DNA of 24,719 bases from a virus, in the IMG/VR virus record IMGVR_UViG_3300001533_000850, positions 1 to 24,719 of that record. One strand, given 5' to 3'. Below, piece after piece: positions 24-24,623 of this stretch (the stretch's first letter is position 1; every line of letters starts with the position of its first letter). The notes under the pieces are model-generated. The model was given only the letters and a program-made list of their open reading frames with translations, had not been told where the DNA came from and did not search any database. The position numbers were made by a program, and so were the translations under genes.

Positions 24-45
24 GGGAAACCCGAAGGGGTTTTCC
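24..45 (-). terminator. Hairpin terminator after the polymerase-like gene
   Basis: GGGAAACCC and GGGTTTTCC flank a GAAG loop, giving a nine-pair stem with one G-T pair or A-C mismatch depending on strand. It lies 12 bases beyond the stop codon of the minus-strand gene ending at 58. No long T tract follows, so this rests on the hairpin and its position. Confidence 0.55.
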
Positions 46-57
46 GTTCTCAATAAT

Positions 58-1242
58 CTATAACTTTAATTTAATTTTTAGGTTGTCAAATTCTTTTATT
101 AAAAAGTCTTTGGTTCTTGATTCATTACTTAAACTAACTATTACTTCATCGTGTCTTAATAATTTAAACACCTTTAACTTACCAATGTTATTCACGAATA
201 TATTCGATTCAATAGTTTGAAGTTTTTTAGCTAAACAAGTATCTTCTTTTATTTTATTAATTTGTTCTACAACTCCATTATATCTACTATTCATCGCATT
301 GTATAACTTACCACTCTTTAACTTATTCTTACCAAAGAATATATACTTGTAACACATAACCTTAATTTCATTTCTACCTATTTCTTCCGGCAAGATTTTA
401 ATTAATTCGTCATAAAATAATCCATTAACGCAATCTTTTTTATACAACTTATTATCTATCATAGTTGATAGTAATAAGGGTTGACAATTACTAATATCAA
501 CTGATGTTGTTTTTTCATTATATAATCTTATAAACTTAACTGAGCTCTTTGGTAAATTACTTATTGATGAATAAAATCTGCCTTCATCAGAGATTTTGAA
601 CCATAAATTTTGTAGATTGACTTTTAAAGCCATACAGAAGTATAAATAAACCTTATCCTCAGTTAAGAATCTCTTTTCTAGTATGCCTGTTTTTTTATTA
701 TAGACAGGATTTAATTCAATTCCTATATTGTTTTGCATCCAAAATAAATAATCATCTAAATCTATTGAAGCATTATAACAATCTTCTATTAGGTTTTTAT
801 TATTTGGATATTTATTGAGCCAAAATTCCTTACTTAATGTTTTCTTAAAGATTAAATCCAAATCAATATCACACTCAGTTAATTTACTTACTTTTAAAAA
901 ATCAGTATTTATTCTGTAACCAGTTGAATACTGACCACTAAAATATGTTCCATTAGATTCAATTAAACGACTCATTAATTTTAATAAATCTTTATAATTT
1001 AACCTTATACCACCGACTTTTATTCCGAAGTTGGTGAAATTATTACTATGTATGTCTGTATAAAACTTTAAGTTGATTGCATCATTATCATCTATTTGTT
1101 TTTGGTATATAAAAAACCAAAATTCAATTAATCTTTTTATTAGTTTTTGTTTTTTCGGTTCTTTTAGTTCATTAAATCTATAATCTATATCTACCGATTC
1201 AATTACTTTTTCTATTAATAAGGTTGGGATTTTTATTTTCAC
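58..1242 (-). CDS. Small family-A polymerase-like protein (palm/fingers motifs only)
   Basis: 394 aa, with a GTG start directly preceded by an in-frame TAA; the next Met is near residue 90. The C-terminal half carries the family-A (Pol I/T7-like) motif series in order: GRFYSSISNL (221-230), resembling the Pol I segment GRLSS..PNL; VDISNCQP (248-255), a motif A candidate with Asp249; R290-x3-K294 followed by F302-F-G304, a motif B candidate; and RHDEV (363-367), a motif C candidate with the His-Asp-Glu triad. There is no 3'-5' exonuclease domain and the protein is far shorter than normal Pol I (about 600 aa or more). The N-terminal 190 residues are not recognisable. By inference it is a reduced DNA or RNA polymerase, possibly for replication or priming. 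It lies alone on the minus strand behind a structured leader. The motif reading is by eye, so the catalytic role is likely but unproven. Confidence 0.6.
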   Translation of the reverse strand: MKIKIPTLLIEKVIESVDIDYRFNELKEPKKQKLIKRLIEFWFFIYQKQIDDNDAINLKFYTDIHSNNFTNFGIKVGGIRLNYKDLLKLMSRLIESNGTYFSGQYSTGYRINTDFLKVSKLTECDIDLDLIFKKTLSKEFWLNKYPNNKNLIEDCYNASIDLDDYLFWMQNNIGIELNPVYNKKTGILEKRFLTEDKVYLYFCMALKVNLQNLWFKISDEGRFYSSISNLPKSSVKFIRLYNEKTTSVDISNCQPLLLSTMIDNKLYKKDCVNGLFYDELIKILPEEIGRNEIKVMCYKYIFFGKNKLKSGKLYNAMNSRYNGVVEQINKIKEDTCLAKKLQTIESNIFVNNIGKLKVFKLLRHDEVIVSLSNESRTKDFLIKEFDNLKIKLKL

Positions 1243-21238: not shown

Positions 21239-21908
21239 TTATAATTTTTTTATTGTGAGCATTTTTAAAGTAACCAATGTCGTTGCTGCTCCACTAGTTA
21301 AAGTGGGATATATGTAATTATCAACAGTCGTATCAAAAATTGGTGTTAAGACGGCTGCTGTTGAAACTATTCCAATATCACTATAACTTACTTGACCTGT
21401 AGCAAAGGAAGCTGAAACACCAGTTATCAATATATTATTTCTAATTAAACTCACAAATTTTGTCTGACCTCCACTCGAGGGGCCTGTAGCTAATAATTCT
21501 CCATTCGCAATGACAGGAGCTGGATCTACTAACGAGTTTCTAAATCTTAAATTGAAGATGGGGCTACATCAGTTTCAAACACAGCGCTAATTTGCATTAT
21601 ATCACCAGTCGTGAAAGTATTCGCTGGAACTAAAAAGTAATCAAAGTCCTTTTCACCACCACCACTCTTTGAAATTGCTCCGACAAATTAACAATATACG
21701 GACTCGGTGCTGCTCCCAAACTCAATCTATCATTAGAATCTAAAACAACATAACGATCTGAAGTTGAAGTAGAATATGTCGATAAAATCGCACCCTGTTC
21801 GTCTATTCTAAAATATTCATCACCTGTAATTAGATTATTAAATCTAGCTGATGAGGTCGGAAAGTTAAAGTTTATTCCACTCGAACTATTCGTCATATAT
21901 ATCTTCAT
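21239..21908 (-). pseudogene. Fibre-tip gene broken by two frameshifts
   Basis: Three successive frames give one continuous protein. Frame 1 from 21908 (or the ATG at 21896) runs to about 21680 and includes TGDEYFRIDEQGAILSTYST and NDRLSLGAAPSPYIVNLSEQ. Frame 2, about 21680-21550, reads GAISKSGGGEKDFDYFLVPA, then NTFTTGDIMQISAVFETDVA. Frame 3, about 21560-21239, reads FNLRFRNSLVDPAPVIANGE, then LLATGPSSGGQTKFVSLIRN and the end LVTLKMLTIKKL. Each junction fits the loss of a single base. The composite (about 220 aa) resembles C1q-like fibre tips: a short coil start, 'LVPANTF..GD...I.A.F', and a late hydrophobic strand. It overlaps the end of the collagen-fusion gene by 11-23 bases. It is either a decayed fibre-tip gene or a good gene with two assembly errors. 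Confidence 0.7.
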
Positions 21909-23145
21909 TTATATCTAAAAAATTTCTATCATTTGTTGATAGATTTTCTGTTGATATGTTTACACCATTTCTATCAACAATAACATTTGAACTAAGTATC
22001 GTGTTATTATAATTTAAAACTGCGCTAGTTCCAAATATACCACTAATTATTTCAAATCCTGACTGAGTTAAATAAAATGCTGTAAAGTTACTATCATTAA
22101 AAATATATGAGTTTTTAGGACTATATCTATTGAAAAAAGTGCCATCATTTGAAATAGACATAATGGTCTGACTATTTGTTCCCAACCATTCAGTATGTAT
22201 AACTGAGGAAGTTGCTAATAATCGGATTCCAAAAGAACCTTCATCATATAATAGTAGATTGTCTGCTACTCCTGTCGCTCCTACTGGGCCTTGACTACCT
22301 GTTGCTCCTGCTGGCCCTGTTGCTCCTGCCACACCTGCTGGCCCTGTTGCTCCTGCTGGGCCTTGACTACCTGTTGCTCCTGCTGGGCCTGTTGCTCCAT
22401 CAACACCTGCTGGGCCTTGACTACCTGTCGCACCTGCTGGCCCTGTCGCACCAAATCCAGCAGCTCCAGTCGCACCTGTTGAGCCTGTTGGGCCAGGACT
22501 TCCAGTTGGCCCTTTAGCTCCATCAGGCCCTGTTGCGCCTGCCGGGCCAGTTGCGCCCCTTAAATCTATTCCCTCTATACAATCTTTAACCAATCCACAG
22601 AATGACTGAGTCACTGTAAGAAACATATCTGATATGTAAAGAGCATCCAACTCATCCACTGGATTGGAGCAAAATGTATATTTAAACGGAAATCTTAAAG
22701 TTAAATTTACAACAACTCTATTCGTAATATCATCGTTCTCCTCAAACTCATAATCCATTCTGACATCATCAACTAGCGTCACATTATTTTGTGCGTAATA
22801 TGGGTGTTGTGATAATTCTGATATCATTGCCATAGCAATTTCACCTACATCGCTCAATGTTTCTACATCATTTTTCAAGTCAGATCTTAGTTTGTCTGCG
22901 ATATAGCAGTTGAGCTCTACCTCAATTATAGAGTATCCACTTTTGGTTGTCCTGTCATTTGACAGAACTGTTATATTAACTGGAGCTACATATAGATAAG
23001 GATAACCTAAAACTAATGGGTTCAAGTTCTCTATCTTGCCAAATCCGAAATGTCCTTTCAAATCTCTCGACCTAAGAGCGAAGTCCTGAAAGATTTTGAA
23101 GACCCACTGAAGTGATTTAGGTGAATTTGATATTGGTAGTGCCAT
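21886..23145 (-). CDS. Tail-completion domain fused to collagen-like stalk and fibre domain
   Basis: 419 aa in three parts. Residues 1-180 resemble tail completion/terminator-like proteins of Bacteroidota phages ([50 protein letters not shown], and a strand [15 protein letters not shown]). Residues 197-292 are about 32 Gly-X-Y triplets, rich in GAT, GPA and GSQ with one break (GAAGFGAT), which would form a trimeric collagen stalk. Residues 293-419 are a Ser/Asn-rich beta region with short repeats ([18 protein letters not shown]). The layout suggests a neck or tail fibre (whisker) built directly on a neck ring protein. The broken fibre-tip gene follows and may carry its head. It lies downstream of the chaperone, as a tail-completion gene could. 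Confidence 0.7.
22267..22557 (-). repeat. Collagen-coding repeat tract
   Basis: DNA encoding about 32 Gly-X-Y triplets, with nearly identical nine- to 24-codon blocks (units such as GATGSQGPA followed by GATGPA). The tract is GC-richer than its surroundings and opens long Leu-rich and Gln-rich frames in other registers, which are not genes. Copy number may vary by slippage. Confidence 0.85.
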
Positions 23146-24026: not shown

Positions 24027-24623
24027 TCAAAAGTTTTTAATCCATTTAATTTGTGTTTCACCTTCATAACTTTTATCCCAAGTAATCCAGCAAAAACTCA
24101 TACCAGTTATACATTTTTCTGGCAATCCACCTCCTTTAATAAAACTTATCCTCTTTGAATATATAAGGACACTTTTACAAGGAAACTCTTTATTATGAAA
24201 AACTGGAAATCTTTTCATGGTATCTAAATAATTTAGTGGCACTAAAAAACTTATTTTTTTATTTGATACTTTGAATGCTTTTTCAATAAACTCTAAATTA
24301 AGATTGAATGGTGGATTAGTTATTATGTAGTCATAGTTATCATTACATTTAAGAAAATCAACATCTTCTAATATATCATCACCACATACATCAAATCCAA
24401 AATCTTGCATTTTTTTATATAGGTATTTATTGACCCCATAACAAGGTTCATAATAAGTTCCATCATTAGTATAAGGCTCATACTTAAATAAATCATCTAA
24501 ATATATTGGGTTAGTTTCATATAAATCTAATTGTTTATTTTCATCATATCTATCAGAACGACCAACAAATGTTTGACCCAATCTTTCAACTCTTTTTCTA
24601 TTTTTACTTCCTTTTTGATTCAT
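24027..24623 (-). CDS. Orphan N6-adenine-type DNA methyltransferase-like protein
   Basis: 198 aa. NPPF at 103-106 (DYIITNPPFN) is the catalytic motif of amino-methyltransferases, and YYEPCYGVNKYLYKKM (57-72) resembles the AdoMet-binding motif 'EP..G.G.....L', followed by acidic Asp residues (GDDILEDVDF). Motif I before NPPF gives the gamma-type order. The DNA target is unknown and no restriction gene is next to it. The ATG lies four bases from repeat copy 2, and the stop is 19 bases before the chaperone. It is first in the long minus-strand operon, so it is probably expressed with virion genes, perhaps to protect packaged DNA. Confidence 0.75.
   Translation of the reverse strand: MNQKGSKNRKRVERLGQTFVGRSDRYDENKQLDLYETNPIYLDDLFKYEPYTNDGTYYEPCYGVNKYLYKKMQDFGFDVCGDDILEDVDFLKCNDNYDYIITNPPFNLNLEFIEKAFKVSNKKISFLVPLNYLDTMKRFPVFHNKEFPCKSVLIYSKRISFIKGGGLPEKCITGMSFCWITWDKSYEGETQIKWIKNF

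Follow-up and report, generated by a model that had tools for sequence, protein, structure and literature searches.

A widespread family of miniature family A-type polymerases in Bacteroidota phages and mobile elements, with a candidate role as replication primase-polymerase

We analysed a viral DNA stretch of 24,719 nt (the window), a fragment without end overlap which breaks off 57 nt past a gene for a miniature polymerase. The gene and the parts of its product are listed below; counts refer to the 66 relatives described further on.

58..1242, minus strand: stand-alone miniature family A-type polymerase ORF, 394 aa with a GTG start (relatives; AlphaFold model with pLDDT 92.0 and pTM 0.88)
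910..1161, minus strand: putative winged-helix-like N-terminal region, residues ~28-111, its wing holding G103 and the near-invariant Y109 (conservation and the secondary structure seen in both models)
613..831, minus strand: putative thumb-like helical region, residues ~138-210 (helices in the model and position before the palm)
61..600, minus strand: palm and fingers catalytic region, residues ~215-394 (conservation, model, fold matches and profile comparison)
577..582, minus strand: hairpin arginine motif G221-R222 (R222 in 66/66)
475..498, minus strand: motif A, D249-I-S-N-C-Q254-P-L, with the catalytic Asp and a Gln at the steric-gate position (D+5)
331..375, minus strand: motif B (O-helix), R290-x3-K294-x3-Y298...F303-G304 (K294 in 65/66; Phe at the Tyr766/Tyr639 position)
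208..219, minus strand: Q342-x2-E345 motif between B and C, conserved and also present in TV-Pols
145..153, minus strand: motif C, H364-D365-E366 (D365 in 66/66, H364 in 54/66)
25..45, minus strand: hairpin with a UUCG loop directly past the stop codon, without a U tract (-12.1 kcal/mol, z -1.9), a weak candidate for a terminator

Elsewhere in the window, a 39-nt direct repeat (1610-1648 and 1900-1938; 79%), which holds GTATAAAACGATAC, precedes two similar short ORFs with starts near 1653 and 1941 and may serve a small duplicated gene as a shared promoter or operator. An N6/N4 DNA methylase gene (PF01555, 4296-5311) overlaps a GIY-YIG nuclease ORF by 4 nt, a 198-aa ORF at 24027-24623 has a DNA-methylase-like NPPF motif and no Pfam match, and a 419-aa ORF at 21886-23145 with collagen-like GATGPAG repeats probably encodes a tail fibre.

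The initial annotation, made from the DNA letters, had described a series of family A polymerase motifs in this protein, and G221-R222-F-Y-S225-S226...N229-L230, D249-I-S-N-C-Q254, R290-x3-K294...F303-G304 and H364-D365-E366 are indeed present, all within the last 174 residues. Searched as a single sequence, the 394-aa protein gave no significant match in Pfam, PHROGs or the PDB, with nothing at E<=1 for Pfam DNA_pol_A (PF00476) and hence nothing at its cut-off, so that profile libraries miss motifs which can be seen by eye. Single-sequence searches of plasmids and of IMG/VR viral contigs also found nothing, and PDB sequences searched with the family profile returned noise only. The N-terminal ~200 residues give no exonuclease match, in keeping with the earlier view that the protein lacks a proofreading domain.

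Relatives were collected by a tblastn search of phages, followed by an alignment, a scan of IMG/VR and the construction of a profile of 49 members. The tblastn search found six records at 22-28% identity with a best E of 5e-9; all six are uncultured huge phages, 595-735 kb in length. A bacterial relative was found in Algoriphagus. The alignment-based scan recovered 118 loci, of which 80 were kept, nearly all with intact ORFs of ~375-450 aa. The small size noted at first (394 aa) is not singular, since the whole phage family measures ~390-420 aa. With the profile of 49, the gene was found once per record in 17 phage records (23-735 kb); as these had been selected as carriers of the gene, they show copy number and not universality, and for the same reason we do not claim that the gene is universal in huge phages. 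Cultured, annotated phages gave no match in the phage searches. Gene-carrying records correspond in length to the four largest complete phage genomes (634, 636, 642 and 735 kb), which are placed in the Mahaphage clade and are predicted to replicate in Bacteroidetes (Al-Shayeb et al., PMC7162821). Furthermore, relatives with ORFs of ~385-690 aa were found in integrative elements in 17/396 Bacteroidota genomes, and another on a Hymenobacter plasmid that has its own annotated replication initiator; full-length hhalign comparison of phage and bacterial members gave 100%. In a tree, the window protein groups with small-phage relatives (100/100), the deep order being unsettled with long branches. 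Judged by sequence, the protein is a member of a large family of Bacteroidota phages and mobile elements that has almost no annotation. One Bacteroidota member of 686 aa (L088:1504-3561) has a C-terminal extension of the GIY-YIG homing-endonuclease type (TIGR01453, E 8e-13), which is a fusion or a captured homing gene.

Conservation was counted over 66 diverse, non-identical relatives, most of which share ~20% identity. All 66 have R222, E345 and D365; D249, Y277 and K294 are kept in 65/66, N252, Q254 and P255 in 63/66, Q342 in 60/66 and H364 in 54/66; a motif series that is near-invariant over such distances is not a product of chance. The order of motif A Asp, O-helix RxxxK and motif C HD is that of family A DNA polymerases. 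Motif C reads HDS in most members, and one small-phage clade (L014, L016, L017, L020, L021, L037, L043, L052 and L054) has LFD[AS] instead of HD[SE], keeping the Asp and replacing His by Phe. At the steric-gate position (motif A +5), Gln is found in 63/66 and His in 3/66, in place of the Glu of PF00476. Gln254, five residues after the motif A Asp, stands at the position of Klenow Glu710 and T7 RNA polymerase Gly542, and a Phe eight residues after the O-helix Lys at that of Klenow Tyr766 and T7 RNA polymerase Tyr639, where the window protein has one extra residue and reads FF; for Klenow we take Glu710 to be the motif A +5 residue and Tyr766 the O-helix Lys +8 residue. The exchange of the steric-gate Glu for Gln and of the O-helix Tyr for Phe suggests that the choice of sugar may be relaxed. 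In T7 RNA polymerase, the Tyr639 hydroxyl touches the ribose 2'-OH and the Y639F exchange widens the substrate range (PMC4551944).

AlphaFold also modelled a 418-aa relative with confidence (pLDDT 91.5, pTM 0.87), and the top PDB fold matches of both models (Foldseek) were all family A polymerases, with apPol first (E 4e-4 and 6.7e-5), then Pol theta, Bst and Taq, and with mitochondrial RNA polymerases lower down the list. Probabilities were ~1.0 and TM-scores low (0.3-0.43), so the predicted structures support a family A palm/fingers fold class and not a close relationship. A fold without a palm, which would have spoken against a polymerase, was not what the search returned. In both models the N-terminal elements follow the order helix-strand-helix-helix-wing, which suggests that this region is a winged helix. 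Among viral predicted structures (BFVD), the best matches were A0A516L5C2 and A0A8D9FR19 (E 1.6e-14 and 8e-14; TM 0.63, 18-22% identity, ~405 aa), followed by divPolA2-type proteins. Both are probably relatives already in UniProt; A0A8D9FR19, from an uncultured marine phage, is entered as 'Putative DNA polymerase I', and for the two proteins we found a database label only and no published study.

Profile comparisons with hhalign place the protein in the TV-Pol/divPolA2 neighbourhood of family A. The family matched divPolA2 at 96.2% and its bacterial members did so at 97.6-97.9%, and a profile of six TV-Pol sequences gave 95.2% with the bacterial members versus 38.8% with the phage subset; TV-Pol as a single sequence gave no signal, and six unrelated families used as controls stayed below 1%. 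Together with the near-invariant motifs and the Foldseek matches, these values bear out the family A-type core that had been proposed. Its motifs mark the family as a distinct branch, with the signature D-I-x-N-[SC]-Q-P; the closest named relatives of this branch are divPolA2 (2024) and TV-Pol (2008). DivPolA2 (for divergent PolA 2), which occurs in barbaviruses, ICP1 and Vibrio/Aeromonas phages (PMC11348598), is also small (~430 aa), with palm and fingers, no exonuclease and an unusual N-terminal domain. However, the match is limited to palm and fingers, the N-terminal domains do not align, motif A of divPolA2 keeps Glu at +5 (DFKAFE) where the window family has Gln, and its hosts are gammaproteobacteria, unlike those of the window family. 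The TV-Pols, which have been predicted to be prim-pols, are minimal enzymes, with a family A-type core of 400-600 aa that includes a conserved Arg, two Asp and RxxxK (PMC2579912); LQxxE and a D-x3-[CS]-[H/Q] motif A are common to both families, as is their occurrence in mobile elements including those of Bacteroidota. TV-Pol motif A is usually D-x3-C-H, however, whereas the window family has Gln, the link to D5-type helicases known for TV-Pols was not seen for the window family, and the two profiles match different Bacteroidota genomes. TV-Pol-like proteins also occur on Polaromonas plasmids (L165:787-2292 and L166:37-1653), one of them just upstream of RepA and one carrying the label of a Clp protease N-terminal domain protein.

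CcPol-MP, an enzyme based on family A, has proven primase activity (PMC7581432), and it and PolA-SSB resemble the window family in having a family A palm without active proofreading and, on our reading, in serving mobile-element replication (PMC7581432, PMC10061031). CcPol, however, closely resembles bacterial Pol I, retains the equivalents of Glu710 and Phe762 and requires an OB-fold partner (PMC7581432), and no such neighbour was seen for the window family. DNA polymerase I of PF00476 and the mini-PolA proteins of huge phages have the same motif order A-B-C and fold class, but the window protein has no Pfam match, its pocket Glu and Tyr are replaced, and hhalign with the phage family gave 0.7-3.5%.

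These mini-PolA genes are canonical members of PF00476 (406-429 aa, E ~1e-17 to 1e-22), and in three huge phages (G007, G014 and W03) the family gene lies directly upstream of one. A conserved gene of ~186 aa follows the mini-PolA gene.

L107:1489-2775: mini-PolA after the family gene (PF00476); ~186-aa gene at L107:872-1438
L108:1492-2781: mini-PolA after the family gene (PF00476); ~186-aa gene at L108:877-1437
L109:1432-2652: mini-PolA after the family gene (PF00476); ~186-aa gene at L109:867-1409

The three phages have two tandem miniature family A polymerases plus a PolIII alpha. The product of the ~186-aa gene looks sigma-like by eye ('DDFEDINQELIMSLIRAGSYY'), and the one copy tested matched neither Pfam nor PHROGs. 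Among the 20 records searched, PolB-like ORFs were found in 11 and PolIII alpha in 3, all of them huge phages, and a DnaB-type helicase lies <=21 kb from the gene in 8/10 huge phages with a DnaB match over the cut-off, which represent only about three lineages. A DnaG-like protein was found in the three tandem-arrangement phages as well (E 2e-15 to 4e-20), so that another enzyme may prime there and the polymerase gene is not simply filling the slot of a missing primase. The notion that huge phages lack a primase, from a DNAG_N match in 1/20 records, was dropped because the dnaG model gave three clear matches and six further weak ones. In Mahaphage-like genomes, a conserved gene of ~444 aa lies just upstream on the same strand (L004:3975-5297 and relatives, 33 loci); neither this neighbour nor another of 179 aa matched any family.

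On the small-phage side, the contigs of three close relatives (G003, G004 and G005; L111-L116), classed as 'linear' in IMG/VR, have identical ends of 121-126 nt, which indicates that the genomes are circular and complete, with sizes of about 31.4, 34.0 and 31.0 kb. In these genomes, models for DnaG, DnaB, PolB and PolIII found nothing. G004 has a 1166-aa helicase gene divergently adjacent to the polymerase gene, and a P-loop scan found an 895-aa protein with GTGKS in G003 and the terminase only in G005. No conserved neighbour and no MP-like small partner was seen beside the polymerase gene in small phages. Near the bacterial copies, a tyrosine integrase was found at 7/17 loci, and HTH_17, AAA_24, DUF3871 and RadC genes also occur, which places these copies in integrative elements.

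The initial annotation had left the function open between a specialised polymerase, a primase-like enzyme and a divergent RNA polymerase; the evidence leans, without being decisive, towards a primase-polymerase of replication. From sequence and models, we therefore give a slight preference to a catalytically competent, template-dependent family A-type polymerase without exonuclease, which would serve phage DNA replication as a primase-polymerase. As we infer its working, the enzyme would consist of palm and fingers with a short helical region resembling a thumb and, at the N-terminus, a winged-helix-like domain that would hold template or origin DNA. R222, together with R290 and K294 of the fingers, would place the template and the incoming nucleotide, D249 and D365 would bind two metal ions, and Gln254 and the O-helix Phe may loosen sugar selection, which would fit a chain-starting enzyme. 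By analogy with CcPol-MP and with what has been predicted for TV-Pols, there is a good chance of priming activity; since CcPol, a proven primase, keeps the Glu gate (PMC7581432), the Gln is not required for it. We count in favour of this reading the conserved motifs, the confident models with their family A fold matches, the profile matches to divPolA2 and TV-Pol, the single copy per phage record, the proximity of DnaB, the tandem position before a mini-PolA in three huge phages, the 31-34 kb genomes in which the models tested found no other polymerase, the integrases near bacterial copies and the precedents of TV-Pol and CcPol-MP, and against it the small number of huge-phage lineages, the selection of the phage records as carriers of the gene, the missing PF00476 profile match, TM-scores of only 0.3-0.4 to solved polymerases, the DnaG-like proteins of the tandem phages, the absence of an MP-like partner and of a D5-type helicase link, and the weak direct comparison of TV-Pol with the phage subset (38.8%).

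The strongest alternative is an accessory enzyme, a DNA polymerase acting in repair or lesion bypass that would extend primers but could not start chains; we regard it as possible though rather unlikely. The complete 31-34 kb genomes, in which no other polymerase was found with the models tested, speak against it, as does the position of the gene near DnaB in huge phages; repair polymerases are rare in phages of so small a size. In its favour are the huge phages, whose own PolB or PolIII alpha implies that the small enzyme is not their replicase, and three of which also have a DnaG-like protein; specialised polymerases commonly have no exonuclease, and repair is among the roles offered for divPolA2 (PMC11348598). 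A divergent single-subunit RNA polymerase transcribing phage genes, with a winged-helix region that recognises promoters, has likewise been considered for divPolA2 (PMC11348598), and would agree with the HDS motif C of most members, as in T7-type enzymes, the loss of the steric-gate Glu and the mitochondrial RNA polymerases among the fold matches; we think it improbable here, as the equivalent of Tyr639, which contacts the ribose 2'-OH in T7 RNA polymerase (PMC4551944), is Phe, that of Gly542 is Gln, there is no Pfam RNA_pol match and hhalign against the single T7 sequence gave 0.1%. That the protein is a winged-helix, origin-binding replication initiator with a minor polymerase domain is very improbable, for despite the wHTH-like N-terminus of both models and the presence of the gene in small phages and on a plasmid, its catalytic residues are near-invariant and the Hymenobacter plasmid already has an initiator.

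The primase-polymerase reading can be taken further, to single-polypeptide, partner-free enzymes derived from family A that would accept ribo- and deoxynucleotides. Complete ~31 kb Bacteroidota phages would then have no other replication-type polymerase, and the largest known phages would carry the gene as standard, in a single copy. We put this forward as a speculative proposal with a modest chance of being right; if true, DnaG and AEP would be joined by another lineage of primases, one without a separate partner.

Set beside the earlier work on TV-Pol, CcPol and divPolA2 and the database labels already present, the family stands out by its spread across Bacteroidota phages, huge and small, and by the signature of its nucleotide pocket. 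The findings give a likely polymerase function to a gene that is common to small Bacteroidota phages and the four largest complete phage genomes (PMC7162821), and for which annotation pipelines see nothing in those phages. They also place next to TV-Pol and divPolA2 a well-populated branch whose Gln/Phe nucleotide pocket is unusual, which makes sugar choice in family A and the gain or loss of chain starting directly testable in a protein of 390 residues.
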